Source of the DNA: Candidatus Equicola faecalis
Lineage (GTDB): Bacteria; Bacteroidota; Bacteroidia; Bacteroidales; Bacteroidaceae
Assembly: GCA_018065185.1 (NCBI GenBank)
Contig: JAGHTU010000046.1
Location: 1-64,000, forward strand
Reading direction: 5' to 3'
DNA length: 64,000 nt
Positions within the stretch are counted from its first letter, which is position 1. Every line of letters begins with the position of its first letter. This document shows positions 37,299 to 47,045 of the stretch, piece by piece. The notes under the pieces were generated by a model. That model was given only the letters and a program-made list of their open reading frames with translations, had not been told where the DNA came from and searched no databases. The position numbers and the translations under genes are program-made.

Positions 37299-40070
37299 AT
37301 GAATAAAGACACAGAAAAACGGGTGAAAGCCTTTGTTGAACGTTGGAGAGGCAGAGGATATGAAAAGGGAGAAAGTCAGCCGTTCTGGTTGGATCTTCTT
37401 CAGACTGTACAGGGAGTGGAACGACCATACGATATAGTTTCTTTCGAGAATCAGGTGAAGCTCAGTAGCACCAGTTTTATTGATGCTTATATCGAGCCCA
37501 CTCACACACTCATCGAGCAGAAGTCCATCGACAAAGACCTTCGCAAGCCCATTCCGCAGAGCGACGGCTCTCTGCTAAAACCATTCGAGCAGGCAAAACG
37601 TTACAACAACGAACTGCCGTATTCCAAGCGTGCTCGTTGGATGGTGATATGCAACTTCAAGGAATTTCACGTCTATGACATGGAGAACCCTCACAGCGAA
37701 CCGGAGGTTATCTTGCTGGAAAACTTGGAAAAGGAATATTACCGCCTGAGATTTCTCACCGAGACAAAAGACGTGCATTTGCAAAAAGAGCTTGAAGTGT
37801 CGATGAAGGCTGGCGATATTATCGGCGAGATTTACGACGAGTTGTTGAAAGAATACCGCAATCCTGATTCTGACGAGACCTTGAAAAGTCTGAACGTGCT
37901 TTGTGTGCGATTGGTGTTTTGCTTGTATGCTGAGGATGCTGGCATCTTCGGTAAGCACGATATGTTTCACGACTATTTGGTGAAATATAAACCGGGCGAG
38001 GGCGACATGCGCCGTGCACTTATCGACCTGTTTCGTGTGCTGAACACTCCCGAGAGTGAGCGTGACCCGTATTTGAACGATGACCTTTTGGCTTTCCCTT
38101 ACTGCAATGGTGGATTGTTTGCCGATGAAACGGTTGAGATTCCGCGTTTCAACGACAAGATAGCACATCTGCTTTTGCAAAATGCGAGCCTTGATTTTGA
38201 TTGGAGCCAGATTAGTCCTACTATCTTCGGTGCCGTCTTTGAGAGCACGCTCAACCCCGAGACGCGTCGTAGTGGCGGAATGCACTATACTTCGATAAAG
38301 AACATACACAAGGTGATAGACCCTTTGTTCCTTGATGACTTGCGCCAAGAGTTTGAGAGCATCAAGGGAGAACGTTTGGAACGCACTCGTCGCACTCATC
38401 TTGATGCTTTCCACGACAAGTTGGCAAGTCTTACGTTTCTTGACCCTGCTTGCGGTAGTGGCAATTTCTTGACGGAGACTTACCTTTCGTTGCGCCGATT
38501 GGAAAATGAGGTGATATTGGAAAAGAGTAAGGGTGAGAGTTTTCTTGGGTTTGAGAATCCGATAAAGGTAGATATTCATCAGTTTTATGGTATAGAGATT
38601 AACGACTTTGCTGTCTCCACAGCCACCACTGCTCTTTGGATTGCCGAGTCGCAGATGATGAGCGAGACGGAGAAGATTATACACAAAGACCTTGATATGT
38701 TGCCGTTGAAGAGTTATCACAACATCCACGAGGGCAACGCCTTGCGTATGGATTGGAACGACGTTATCCCTGCTTCGGAACTGTCCTACATTATGGGCAA
38801 TCCGCCGTTTGTGGGGCATCAAAATAGAAATAAAGCACAAATAGAAGATATGGATGTTGCCTTTCATGATTTTGAAACATACGGAAAACTTGATTACGTA
38901 TCCGCTTGGTACAAAATGGCAGCAGATTATATGCAAGAAACAGACATTCAGGCGGCTTTTGTTTCAACAAATTCCATTTGTCAAGGTGAGTCCGTTTCTG
39001 TTATGTGGGAACCACTTTTTACTAAAAGAAATTTGCAGATTCAATATGCGTGGCGTTCCTTTATTTGGGATAGTGAGGCAAGTTTGAAGGCACACGTTCA
39101 TTGCGTTATTGTAGGTTTCAGCGTTGCGCCAAATAATAAGCCTAAATATATTTTTCAAAGTGAACAAAAGAAAGAAGTAAAAAATATTAATGGATATTTA
39201 TTGGATGCTCCAAATGTATTTATTCAGGGTAGAGGAAATGTCTTAACAAATGGATTGCCTTTAATGACAAAAGGTAGTCAACCTACAGATGGTGGTAACT
39301 TAATTTTATCAGTTGAAGAAAGAAACGACATTCTTAAAAAATATCCCAATGCTGATGATTTTATAAAGCAATATATAGGTGCTGATGATTTTATTAACAA
39401 TAAATTGCGCTATTGTTTGTGGTTAAAAGATGTGGAACCTTCGAAATTTAGGCATATTCCACAAATTATGGAACGATTAGAAAAAGTTGCAAACTTACGC
39501 AAAAATAGTCCAACAAAATCTGTACAATTTGATGCGTTCACTCCATATTTATTTACTCAAATAAGACAACCAGAATCAATGTATTTAGTTGTTCCTGAAA
39601 CATCTTCAGAACGCAGAAAATATATTCCTATGGGTTTTGTTAGCCCAAATATTATATGTAGTAATGCTATTCGGTTTATTCCAAATGCAACATTATATTT
39701 GTTTGGTGTATTAACTTCAAATGTTCATAATGCATGGATGCGTGCCGTTTGTGGAAGATTAAAAAGCGATTATCGATACTCCCCATATATTTACAACAAC
39801 TTCCCTTGGCCTAATCCAAGCGAAGAACAAAAAGCAAAGATAGAGCAGACGGCACAAGCTATTCTTGACGCTCGCGCACTATACCCTGACTCATCACTTG
39901 CCGACCTATATGACGAGGTGGCGATGCCTCCAGAACTGCGCAAGGCACACCAGCAAAACGACCGCGCCGTGATGGAAGCCTACGGATTCCCTGTAAGTCG
40001 CGACTTTACCGAAAGCGACTGCGTGGCAGAACTCTTCAAAATGTACCAAATCCTCACAGGTGATAATTAA
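37299..40070 (+). CDS. Single-chain Type IIL/IIG restriction-modification enzyme, MmeI-like
   Basis: N-terminal nuclease-like FIDAYIEPTHTLIEQKS; SAM motif LDPACGSGNFLTET; catalytic IMGNPPFVGH; C-terminal MmeI-type recognition region RYSPYIYNNFPWP. Confidence 0.88.
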   Translation: MNKDTEKRVKAFVERWRGRGYEKGESQPFWLDLLQTVQGVERPYDIVSFENQVKLSSTSFIDAYIEPTHTLIEQKSIDKDLRKPIPQSDGSLLKPFEQAKRYNNELPYSKRARWMVICNFKEFHVYDMENPHSEPEVILLENLEKEYYRLRFLTETKDVHLQKELEVSMKAGDIIGEIYDELLKEYRNPDSDETLKSLNVLCVRLVFCLYAEDAGIFGKHDMFHDYLVKYKPGEGDMRRALIDLFRVLNTPESERDPYLNDDLLAFPYCNGGLFADETVEIPRFNDKIAHLLLQNASLDFDWSQISPTIFGAVFESTLNPETRRSGGMHYTSIKNIHKVIDPLFLDDLRQEFESIKGERLERTRRTHLDAFHDKLASLTFLDPACGSGNFLTETYLSLRRLENEVILEKSKGESFLGFENPIKVDIHQFYGIEINDFAVSTATTALWIAESQMMSETEKIIHKDLDMLPLKSYHNIHEGNALRMDWNDVIPASELSYIMGNPPFVGHQNRNKAQIEDMDVAFHDFETYGKLDYVSAWYKMAADYMQETDIQAAFVSTNSICQGESVSVMWEPLFTKRNLQIQYAWRSFIWDSEASLKAHVHCVIVGFSVAPNNKPKYIFQSEQKKEVKNINGYLLDAPNVFIQGRGNVLTNGLPLMTKGSQPTDGGNLILSVEERNDILKKYPNADDFIKQYIGADDFINNKLRYCLWLKDVEPSKFRHIPQIMERLEKVANLRKNSPTKSVQFDAFTPYLFTQIRQPESMYLVVPETSSERRKYIPMGFVSPNIICSNAIRFIPNATLYLFGVLTSNVHNAWMRAVCGRLKSDYRYSPYIYNNFPWPNPSEEQKAKIEQTAQAILDARALYPDSSLADLYDEVAMPPELRKAHQQNDRAVMEAYGFPVSRDFTESDCVAELFKMYQILTGDN

Positions 40071-42634: not shown

Positions 42635-45439
42635 TTGACTTGGAAAACTAATTTGGAAGAGACGAAACAGCACTACCTCTCGTGGTGGAACCATCGGGGA
42701 GTGGTGCTCAATATGTGGGAACATTTTCAAGAGGGCGTCACGCCTCATGCCGATGTGCCACAGCCGCCGTCTCCAAAGGATAATCATCAGAAATGGTTTG
42801 ACCCGAAGTGGCGAGCAGAGTATCTTGACTGGTACGTGGCACATAGTTGCCTTGATGCCGACATCCTGCCTGTGGCAAATACGCAACTCGGACCGGGGTC
42901 GCTGGCTGCCATCCTCGGAGCACGTTACGAAGGTGGTGACGACACGATATGGATACATCCTGACCCTGATTATACTGATGATTTCCGTTTCGATGCCAGT
43001 CACCCTAATTACCTGCTTCATAAACAGCTCCTAACAGAGTGTAAGAAGAAGGCAGAGGGGCATTATTATGTCGGTATGCCCGACCTGATGGAAGGACTTG
43101 ACGTGCTTGCAGCCATGAAAGGGACAGACCATGTGCTGACAGACCTCGTGACGCAACCGGAAGTGGTGGAGAGCCAGATGCAACGCATCAACGACATCTA
43201 TTTCCGCGTCTTTGATGAACTCTATGAGATAATCCGTGAAGGAAGGGAGATGGCTTTCTGTTATTTCTCCTCATGGGCACCGGACAAGATGACGAAACTG
43301 CAATGTGACATATCCACGATGATATCGCCTGACGACTATAGGCGATTCGTACAGCCTTTTATCCGCCAACAATGTCAGCGCATACCTTACACGCTGTATC
43401 ATCTTGACGGCGTGGGGGCAATGCATCATCTGCCAGCCCTGCTTGAGATAGACGAACTGTCAGCCGTGCAGTGGACACCGGGCGTTGGGGAACCGCAGGG
43501 AGGTTCGCCACGTTGGTACGACCTTTACCGCCGTGTGCTCGCAGCAGGGAAGAGCATTATGGCATGTCATCTAAAAGTGGATGAGATAAAACCATTACTT
43601 GATAATATAGGAACTGATGGAGTACATCTTGAAGTTGATTTTAATAACCAACAGGAAGTAGAAGAAGCTATGAAAATCGTAGAAGACTTTAACACACATT
43701 CAAGTGCATGCACTTGTGGGTGTAGCGAAACACAAAAGCGTGAGAACATGCTGAGTCCGCAACAGGCCGACCTTGAAGGCGAAATGAAGAAACGTATTCT
43801 TGTGCTTGATGGGGCGCAAGGGACGACAATACAACAGTACAAACTGACAGAAGAACAATATCGTGGCAGTCAGTTTGCTGATTTCAACGGTACGCTGAAA
43901 GGGTGCAACGACCTTCTGAACCTAACCAATCCGGGTGTTTGTGTAGATGTTCACAGACGTTTTGTAGAGGCAGGTGCAGAGATTATCTCTACACACACAT
44001 TCAATGCACAACGCATATCTCTGAAGGGATTTCACATGGAAAACCGTGTTCGCGACATCAACATTGCAGCATGTGCCATAGCAAAAGGTATTGCCGGTTT
44101 CTATTCTACTCTGGAAAAGCCGATTTTCGTTGCTGGAGATATCGGTCCTACACCTAAATGCGTGTCTATTGGAGACATATCTAAAGAAGAATTGTATGAT
44201 GCATACTTTGAACAGATACAGGCACTTGTGGATGGTGGTGTTGACTGCTTGCTGATAGGGACTATATTTGATACGGAAAATGCAAAGATAGCACTTGAAG
44301 CATTCAAGAAGACAGGTAGTAAGATACCTGTCATTATGAGTTTTACTCTTAAAGACCCGAAAGGTTACAACATGCTCGGGCAGGACCTGCTGGCATTTAT
44401 GCTGTCGCTGAAGGATGAACCGGTCATGGCTGTGGGACTGAACTGCTCGCTCGGTGCCGAACAGATGATTCCTTTCCTGAGAAAGATTTCAGCCACTGTA
44501 CCGCAGTATGTCATTGCTTTCCCTAATGCCGGACTGCCTGATAAGGACGGGAAGTATGCTCAGACGCCGAAGATGATGCAGAAAGCCGTATGGCCACTCG
44601 TTGACGAACATCTTGTAAACATCATTGGTGGATGCTGTGGCACGGATGACGGTCATATAAAAGAAATTGCAAAACTCGTTCAGGTGGATGATGGTATATT
44701 CATTTCACCACGCGTTCCGAATGGTACAGCTTCACTTCAAACATTGGTTAAAGAAGATGAGGTTAGCAAATCTCTCCTTTCAGGAGGAGATTCAGAGGAG
44801 GCTTTGACGGAATCATCAGCTCTGTTTGATGCTATCGTCAAGGGTAAGGCTCCTGAAGCAGTGGCTGCAACAAAGGAGAAAATCTCTGCTGGTGCAGACC
44901 CACAGGAGATTATCAATACCGAAATGATTAAGGCGATGAGCGAAGTGGGCAGACAATTTGAAGAAGGCACGGCTTTCGTTCCGCAACTGCTTATGGCAGC
45001 ACGTGCGATGAAAGCCGCACTCGAAATCCTGAAACCATTGATGGCAGGTAAGGAGACCATCTCACTTGGGCGTATCGTCATCGGTACGGTGAAGGGCGAC
45101 CTCCACGACATCGGCAAGAACCTTGTGGCATCCATGCTCGAAGGATGTGGCTTTGAGGTGTTCAACATTGGTATTGATGTTACGGCAGAAAAGTTTATCG
45201 AAGAAATCAAGGTACATGATGCTGATGCCGTGTGTATGAGTGCGTTGCTCACCACCACGATGCCATATATGAAAGAGGTCATCGCTGCCATCAACGCGGC
45301 AGGACTGCGTCAGAGAGTGAAGATAATGGTGGGTGGTGCTCCACTCACACAGGAGTTCTGCGATGAGATAGGTGCTGACGGATATAGCGACAATGCGAAC
45401 TCAGCCGTGGCATTAGCAAAGAAATTATTAAATAAGTGA
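42635..45439 (+). CDS. Three-domain corrinoid methyltransferase: UroD/MtaA-like + homocysteine S-methyltransferase + B12-binding
   Basis: UroD-like ~1-365 aa (LYHLDGVGAMHHLPALLEIDELSAVQWTPG); Hcy domain (LVLDGAQGTTIQ, NIIGGCCGTDDGHI); Cbl domain (GTVKGDLHDIGKNLVASML, SALLTTTMPYM, VMVGGAPLTQEF apart from I/V). TTG start. Confidence 0.85.
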   Translation: MTWKTNLEETKQHYLSWWNHRGVVLNMWEHFQEGVTPHADVPQPPSPKDNHQKWFDPKWRAEYLDWYVAHSCLDADILPVANTQLGPGSLAAILGARYEGGDDTIWIHPDPDYTDDFRFDASHPNYLLHKQLLTECKKKAEGHYYVGMPDLMEGLDVLAAMKGTDHVLTDLVTQPEVVESQMQRINDIYFRVFDELYEIIREGREMAFCYFSSWAPDKMTKLQCDISTMISPDDYRRFVQPFIRQQCQRIPYTLYHLDGVGAMHHLPALLEIDELSAVQWTPGVGEPQGGSPRWYDLYRRVLAAGKSIMACHLKVDEIKPLLDNIGTDGVHLEVDFNNQQEVEEAMKIVEDFNTHSSACTCGCSETQKRENMLSPQQADLEGEMKKRILVLDGAQGTTIQQYKLTEEQYRGSQFADFNGTLKGCNDLLNLTNPGVCVDVHRRFVEAGAEIISTHTFNAQRISLKGFHMENRVRDINIAACAIAKGIAGFYSTLEKPIFVAGDIGPTPKCVSIGDISKEELYDAYFEQIQALVDGGVDCLLIGTIFDTENAKIALEAFKKTGSKIPVIMSFTLKDPKGYNMLGQDLLAFMLSLKDEPVMAVGLNCSLGAEQMIPFLRKISATVPQYVIAFPNAGLPDKDGKYAQTPKMMQKAVWPLVDEHLVNIIGGCCGTDDGHIKEIAKLVQVDDGIFISPRVPNGTASLQTLVKEDEVSKSLLSGGDSEEALTESSALFDAIVKGKAPEAVAATKEKISAGADPQEIINTEMIKAMSEVGRQFEEGTAFVPQLLMAARAMKAALEILKPLMAGKETISLGRIVIGTVKGDLHDIGKNLVASMLEGCGFEVFNIGIDVTAEKFIEEIKVHDADAVCMSALLTTTMPYMKEVIAAINAAGLRQRVKIMVGGAPLTQEFCDEIGADGYSDNANSAVALAKKLLNK

Positions 45440-45446
45440 TAGTTAA

Positions 45447-47045
45447 ATGAACTCCATAACATTCGGTACGCTTGACTGGGTGATTCTGCTCACCTATTTT
45501 GTGGTGCTCATCATCATAGGGCTTTGGGCGAGTGCAAGAAAAAAGAAAGATGAGAATCTCTTTCTTGCCAATCATTCCTTGAAATGGTATCAGATAGGTT
45601 TTTCAATGTGGGGTACAAACGTCGGTCCGTCTATGCTCATCGCTTCTGCAAGTGCAGGTTTTGCCACGGGTGTGGTGTCGGGCAACTATGCGTGGTATGC
45701 CTTTATCTTTATCGGTCTGTTGGCATTCGTGTTTGCACCGCGCTATCTGGGTGAGAAAATCTCTACGTTGCCTGAATTTATGGGCAAACGCTTCGGACAG
45801 TCCACGCGCAACATGCTCGCATGGTACACCATCGTTACCATTCTTATCTCTTGGCTTGCACTGACGCTCTTTGCAGGTGGTATTCTCATCCGTCAGGTGT
45901 TCGGCATACCGATGTGGGCATCAGCACTTATTCTGTTGGGCATATCAGTATTCTTCACCGTATTGGGCGGACTGAAGGCTGTGGCTTACACCAACGTATA
46001 TCAGATGATACTGCTCATCGTGGTATCTGCCACGCTCACCGTAGTGGGTATATGCTACCTTGGTGGTGGTTCATTCTTCGGTGGCATCAGTACGCTTGCT
46101 GACCCGGACGTAGTGCCGTCATCTTATTGGAATCTCTTTCAGCCTAATTCAGACAGGAACTACCCATGGCTGCCTGTGATGCTGGGATATATCGTTTCGG
46201 GCATGTGGTTCTGGTGTACGGATCAGAGCATGGTACAGCCTGTCCTTGCAGCAAAAAACCTGAAGGAAGGACAGCGTGGTGCCAACTTCACAGGTTGGCT
46301 GAAAATCCTTGACGTTGCAATATATATTATCCCTGGTGTTGTATGTTTTGCCCTTGCGCGTACCGGCTTCTTTGGCACAATGACAATCAATCAGGATGAT
46401 GCCTATATGACGCTTGTCACTCATCTCTTCCCAATAGGTATGGTGGGTTTGGTGATGGCTGTACTCACAGCTTCGCTTGTCAGCACTATCGGCAGCGCGT
46501 TGAATGCCCTCAGCACTGTCTTCACGATGGATATATATGTAAGAAAGTTTAATATTGGAGCTGATACCCGTCAGATTGTGCGCGTGGGTCGTATCGTAAC
46601 CATTGTCGGTGCGCTCATTTCGATAATCATCACCATTGCCATAGATAATATAAAAGGTATGGATCTGTTCAATGTCTTCCAGTCGGTGCTCAGTTTCATT
46701 GCTCCGCCGATGGCGGCAGTGTTCCTTATGGGAGTGTTCTGGAAGCGTTGCACCACAATGGCTGCCAACCTTGCACTGACCGCAGGTACGGTATTCAGCA
46801 TAGGTATGGGCATCATTTATCTTTGGGTGGTGGATGGCAGTGCATACATGCACTTTGGTATGCTCTCGTTTATCATCTTCGTCATACTGCTTGTGATGAT
46901 GACCATCACGAGTTTCCTAACTCGTGCAGAGGACAGGGAATCAATGGCTGTGATAAAGGAGAAGACATCAATAGGAGTGATAACGGCATGGATACTGCTA
47001 TCTGTTGTGATGGTGTCTTTCTATATTTTCTTTAATGGTAAATGA
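45447..47045 (+). CDS. Sodium:solute symporter (SSS/SGLT family)
   Basis: Multi-TM; GLWASARKKKDENLFLANHSLKWYQIGFSMWGTNVGPSMLIASASAGFATG; ATG 7 nt after upstream stop. Confidence 0.9.
   Translation: MNSITFGTLDWVILLTYFVVLIIIGLWASARKKKDENLFLANHSLKWYQIGFSMWGTNVGPSMLIASASAGFATGVVSGNYAWYAFIFIGLLAFVFAPRYLGEKISTLPEFMGKRFGQSTRNMLAWYTIVTILISWLALTLFAGGILIRQVFGIPMWASALILLGISVFFTVLGGLKAVAYTNVYQMILLIVVSATLTVVGICYLGGGSFFGGISTLADPDVVPSSYWNLFQPNSDRNYPWLPVMLGYIVSGMWFWCTDQSMVQPVLAAKNLKEGQRGANFTGWLKILDVAIYIIPGVVCFALARTGFFGTMTINQDDAYMTLVTHLFPIGMVGLVMAVLTASLVSTIGSALNALSTVFTMDIYVRKFNIGADTRQIVRVGRIVTIVGALISIIITIAIDNIKGMDLFNVFQSVLSFIAPPMAAVFLMGVFWKRCTTMAANLALTAGTVFSIGMGIIYLWVVDGSAYMHFGMLSFIIFVILLVMMTITSFLTRAEDRESMAVIKEKTSIGVITAWILLSVVMVSFYIFFNGK

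Follow-up and report, generated by a model that had tools for sequence, protein, structure and literature searches.

The MtaA/CmuA-type UroD thiol methyltransferases are defined by an H-x-C ... C zinc motif. Corrinoid enzymes of the UroD superfamily include aryl O-demethylases as well as methyl-thiol enzymes (PMC10418091). Among enzymes of rhamnogalacturonan II (RG-II) breakdown, BT1002, the founder of family GH141, releases 2-O-methyl-D-xylose-alpha1,3-L-fucose from chain A (PMC10154630), and B. thetaiotaomicron reportedly cuts every RG-II linkage except that within this disaccharide; the uncut product reportedly builds up in the culture fluid (PMC7939467).

The locus described here lies in a 64,000 nt stretch of Candidatus Equicola faecalis (the window; contig JAGHTU010000046.1, positions 1 to 64,000) and encodes a single chain that joins a UroD fold, a homocysteine S-methyltransferase (Hcy) domain and a corrinoid (Cbl) module (Table 1). 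We propose, with a probability of about 0.58, that this protein acts in one chain as a corrinoid methyltransferase, taking the methyl group from a methyl-ether sugar of the plant cell wall and making methionine.

Table 1. Coordinates of the fusion gene, its domains and the adjacent transporter gene in the window
Feature	Position	Strand	Basis and remarks
UroD-Hcy-Cbl fusion ORF	42635..45439	+	934 aa, TTG start, single open frame
UroD-fold domain, residues 1-356	42635..43702	+	AlphaFold, Foldseek; predicted methyl-donor (O-demethylase) half
MetH-type homocysteine S-methyltransferase domain, residues 389-682	43799..44680	+	Pfam PF02574 (S-methyl_trans), 273 bits
Codon 542, GGG (Gly)	44258..44260	+	DNA and alignment
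Methyl-corrinoid module: helical cap 729-800 and B12-binding domain 812-925	44819..45409	+	Pfam PF02607/PF02310
SSS-family sodium:solute symporter	45447..47045	+	Pfam SSF, 195.6 bits; 7 bases after the fusion stop codon

Domain organization of the fusion protein

The first-pass annotation of this DNA had described an uninterrupted frame with a UroD/MtaA-like N-terminus, an Hcy domain, a B12-binding module and their signature motifs, lacking folate and activation domains, and most of this description stood. The frame is open throughout and its TTG start coincides in the alignment with the start of its relatives (TWKxNLEET). The Pfam scan returned S-methyl_trans, B12-binding_2 (76 bits) and B12-binding (102 bits) as clear matches, with no match in the ORF to the folate (pterin-binding) or AdoMet reactivation domains; likewise, the NCBIfam metH model scored 475 bits against the fusion, with 1011 bits being required. 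The zinc ligands C604, C667 and C668 and the B12 motifs DLHDIG, SxL and GG (D822-L-H824-D-I-G, S869-A-L871 and G900-G901) are all present and invariant in 32 aligned fusions. The AlphaFold model contains three folded units, connected by linkers (residues 357-375 and 698-725) of low model confidence.

The N-terminal domain scored 14.7 bits against Pfam URO-D, below the cut-off of 23.9, and Pfam, phmmer and profile searches found no close sequence relative of it in the PDB; only the comparison of folds led to UroD. Its AlphaFold model (pLDDT 91.9) retrieved uroporphyrinogen decarboxylases as the top six PDB matches in Foldseek, with TM-scores of 0.45-0.58, and MetE was also among the structural matches. 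Judged from the model, the domain is a distant relative of UroD, as had been annotated; its likeness to MtaA, however, did not extend to the active site. Many residues are invariant in 52 UroD-domain relatives, including E29-H30, D76, D150, E153 and H256-x-D258, the last of these instead of the H-x-C of the MtaA/CmuA type. With H-x-D in place of the thiol-activating H-x-C, this domain is better suited to donate methyl groups than to accept them. A separate MtaA-like protein with HxC is present in relatives.

The Hcy domain is 40-50% identical to that of Bacteroidales MetH, and the three zinc cysteines are conserved in all of the 94 fusions and nine MetH sequences aligned. Position 542 is Glu in 93 of the same 94 fusions and in the nine MetH, and Gly in the window copy alone. 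The equivalent Glu presumably binds homocysteine in BHMT. This substitution is a possible defect of the Hcy domain, as read from the alignment, and the Hcy activity of the window copy is therefore uncertain; possible origins of the change are a mutation in this strain, an error of assembly or incipient decay.

For the corrinoid module, the nearest single-protein NCBIfam profiles were of the MtgC/MtbC type, all below cut-off, and Foldseek matched it to MttC (41% identity). The earlier idea of a machine devoid of AdoMet activation holds for the chain but not for the genome, since a stand-alone MetH-type activation protein (PF02965) is encoded next to GH31 and GH141 genes on another contig (C48), and reactivation is thus not missing. 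All four parts of a corrinoid O-demethylase system, with their roles assigned putatively, are hence present: the donor, corrinoid and acceptor domains in the chain, and the PF02965 protein elsewhere in the genome. No B12 or SAM riboswitch was matched with Rfam in eight loci.

Relatives and gene neighbourhood

A scan for relatives found 140, of which 80 were kept; most of these loci cover the full query, with 51-80% identity, and nearly all are labelled Prevotella, Prevotellaceae or Bacteroidaceae, many being from rumen or gut samples. A fusion created by a sequencing error is ruled out by the occurrence of full-length relatives in dozens of Prevotella-type genomes and species. Because the architecture is conserved in dozens of species, and recurs at full length far beyond chance, the UroD-Hcy-Cbl ORF is confirmed as a real protein architecture. 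Separate-gene forms, which the first-pass annotation had named as a sign of an artefact, do exist, although they represent the same system arranged in another way rather than an assembly error. Three architectures were found: UroD and corrinoid proteins encoded by separate genes (L094, L095, L118 and L121), UroD-Cbl proteins of around 600 aa without Hcy (L115, L116, L117 and L122), and UroD-Hcy-Cbl. A tree of 97 sequences, rooted at the midpoint and with bootstraps that had not settled, placed the separate-gene forms to one side (support 96/98) and nested the UroD-Cbl forms among the Hcy fusions. This nesting probably reflects a single acquisition of the Hcy domain and two or more later losses. 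In a wider search of the phylum, the UroD domain was absent from the 395 other genomes sampled. Locus L069 has an in-frame stop 16 codons past the first matched fusion residue (L069:8001-8048) and matches the query to its end, possibly due to a frameshift or to a different start.

The neighbours that recur beside the relatives are GH141, GH31, an SSS symporter, an MtaA-like URO-D protein and the stand-alone activation protein of the MetH type. In 42 loci an SSS-family symporter lies close to the fusion; this transporter is predicted to import the sugar or disaccharide. In several genera the genes are ordered as GH141-GH31-UroD-(Hcy)-Cbl-symporter. In the genome under study, GH141, GH31 and the activation protein are together on contig C48, while the fusion and its symporter are not adjacent to glycosidases, a separation that counts against the main proposal. 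The UroD domain and GH31 occur in exactly the same 18 of 400 genomes of the family, spread over five of 30 genera (Fisher 1.4e-31), and among 119 relatives they are shared in 21 and discordant in two (Fisher 4.1e-21), both values being calculated without regard to shared ancestry. The glycosidase operon and this near-perfect co-occurrence add to what had been annotated, and make the methyl donor a testable candidate.

The idea that the Hcy domain strictly takes the place of the MtaA-like protein was ruled out, as many fusion loci keep an MtaA-like protein nearby. On the strand opposite to the activation protein, contig C48 also carries genes for an MFS_2 sugar transporter, an FMN-dependent dehydrogenase-like protein and a xylose-isomerase-like barrel protein (L093:368-3486), which may belong to sugar use. 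Upstream of the fusion in the window, an ORF of 923 aa (37299-40070, + strand) contains the motifs DPACGSGNFL and NPPF and would appear to encode a DNA methyltransferase belonging to a restriction or phage-defence system.

Candidate methyl donor and acceptor

The first-pass annotation had postulated a methyl donor without naming it, and the genome context narrows the candidates to a methyl-ether sugar on which GH141 and GH31 would act; it is from these gene neighbours that we infer the sugar. One GH141 of the genome, encoded on contig C23, is an ortholog of BT1002 (703 bits); another, encoded on C48, scores 376 bits against BT1002 and keeps both of its catalytic Asp. Around the BT1002-type gene, C23 also encodes a GH127 matching 5mqo, which we take to be BT1003, a rhamnosidase matching 3cih, presumably BT1001, and a secreted protein of 870 aa for which Pfam gave no match (L101:5558-14079); this cluster is a probable RG-II locus. 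No signal peptide is evident in the GH31, whose closest matches are 5f7c (BT_0339, we assume) and then the alpha-xylosidase YicI. The product of the GH141 founder, together with the likeness of GH31 to BT_0339 and YicI, points to a methylated xyloside as the donor. To our knowledge, 2-O-methyl-xylose is the sole methylated xyloside of land plants, and we would name it tentatively as the donor, at somewhat under even odds.

According to the proposed mechanism, secreted GH141 enzymes would trim RG-II to 2-O-methyl-xylose-alpha1,3-fucose, which the SSS symporter would take up and the cytosolic GH31 would cleave. The UroD domain would then activate the methyl ether of the sugar so that, in line with established corrinoid chemistry, the corrinoid module could take up the methyl group on its Co(I); this module would swing to the Hcy domain, where the zinc-bound thiolate of homocysteine, the putative physiological acceptor, would be methylated. 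Occasional Co(II) would be re-reduced in trans by the separate activation protein. In its fullest form, the proposal is that this is the first corrinoid-dependent O-demethylase to act on a methyl-ether sugar, that it is joined in one chain to a methionine-forming partner, that it completes RG-II breakdown by way of the disaccharide, and that in some genomes it is the sole, folate-free methionine synthase; taken all together, we regard this as possible but rather doubtful.

Several observations would support the same chemistry acting on another methyl-ether sugar, such as 2-O-methyl-fucose from RG-II chain B, 4-O-methyl-glucuronic acid from xylan or arabinogalactan, or a different methylated xyloside; chain A of RG-II would then not be the glycan on which GH141 and GH31 act. 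The GH141 of the operon is, by its lower score, a paralog and not an ortholog of BT1002, and residues F277, C307 and F308 of YicI, presumably its specificity-determining positions, are replaced by S, T and G in the GH31 pocket. Some loci (L067, L068, L069, L118 and L121) place the system beside an additional SSS symporter and an aldolase of the DHDPS-like kind, with an L-fucose isomerase also in L067-L069. Additionally, published lists give BT_0338 as a GH141, BT_0339 as an alpha-xylosidase and BT_0340/0342/0343 as 'Mta' (methylamine) corrinoid proteins, and from these labels the operon seems to be present in B. thetaiotaomicron, the very species that does not consume the disaccharide; either its genes were inactive in those cultures or its substrate is another methyl sugar. 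Nevertheless, BT1002 acts exactly where the only methylated xyloside known to us from land plants is found, and we consider another sugar to be unlikely. A donor that is no sugar at all, be it a methylamine, an aryl methyl ether or a methyl-sulfur compound, would suit both the public methylamine label of the B. thetaiotaomicron proteins and the aryl ether and methyl-thiol enzymes known in the UroD superfamily, but it is improbable given the operon linkage and co-occurrence with GH31 and GH141, and no aromatic or amine genes were seen in the loci read.

The acceptor half bears on methionine supply. The annotated B12-dependent, folate-independent methylation of homocysteine gains from the finding of no MetE (PF01717), MTHFR or other Hcy domain in this genome, which is 89% complete, and is weakened by Glu542Gly. 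With this residue being unique to the window copy, and UroD-Cbl forms of other genera dispensing with the Hcy domain, it could be that the UroD half demethylates its substrate while the Hcy half is crippled in this strain, so that the methyl group leaves through another acceptor or the protein is decaying. We give this little credence: the frame and the zinc and B12 motifs are intact, the base may be an error or a strain variant in a draft genome, and the genome offered neither another Hcy domain nor a match to an MtaA-like protein, the latter in a search run without a positive control on the same 89% complete assembly. Many fusion-bearing relatives retain MetH and MTHFR, and therefore the general role of the system may be sugar use with methyl salvage rather than methionine supply. 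Loss of MTHFR was seen in four of 11 genomes with the Hcy fusion and in none of 10 others, all at least 98% complete, a link that is suggestive only (Fisher 0.09). Many MetH-like frames of Prevotella are of around 920 aa instead of around 1230 aa, which suggests that MetH in this group lacks an activation domain in its chain.

Significance and comparison with known systems

If the main proposal is true, the B12 need of gut Bacteroidales would be linked to the breakdown of plant fibre, the RG-II disaccharide reported as an end product would have a consumer, sugar methyl groups would feed methionine, and the annotated 'Mta' genes, including those of B. thetaiotaomicron, would acquire a function. 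We found no description of an O2-independent removal of sugar methyl ethers in a literature search that fell short of most subscription journals; should the sugar deduced from the gene neighbours be right, demethylation of a sugar would have no known precedent among B12 enzymes.

The fusion shares with MetH an Hcy domain with three zinc cysteines and a cobalamin module with DxHxxG-SxL-GG, although it lacks the folate and activation domains in its chain, has an N-terminal UroD fold and relies on a separate gene for activation. As in CmuA and MtaA/MtbA, a UroD fold works with a corrinoid module, and UroD-Cbl fusions also exist within its own family; it differs from them by the additional Hcy domain, by HxD instead of HxC and by its linkage to glycosidases. 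The three-component phenolic O-demethylases VdmB/OdmB, of the UroD superfamily, resemble it in the proposed attack of Co(I) on a methyl ether and in the separate activator, whereas the fusion is a single chain, with homocysteine instead of tetrahydrofolate as acceptor and a proposed sugar instead of an aryl ether. MtgBCD(E) of Ruegeria pomeroyi likewise couples the demethylation of a nutrient to methionine synthesis through one corrinoid core, but it uses glycine betaine and an MttB-type donor enzyme, and is aerobic with separate subunits (PMC12478193). The operon BT_0338-BT_0343 of B. thetaiotaomicron is the same by its locus labels, although, judging from other Bacteroidaceae loci, it probably contains the form without the Hcy domain. 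Finally, the core methionine synthases MesA-MesD are also folate-independent, with the methyl group probably coming from a corrinoid protein in MesA-MesC (PMC7857596), but they are built on a MetE-type barrel, whereas in the fusion a MetH-type Hcy domain (PF02574) and its corrinoid module share one chain.
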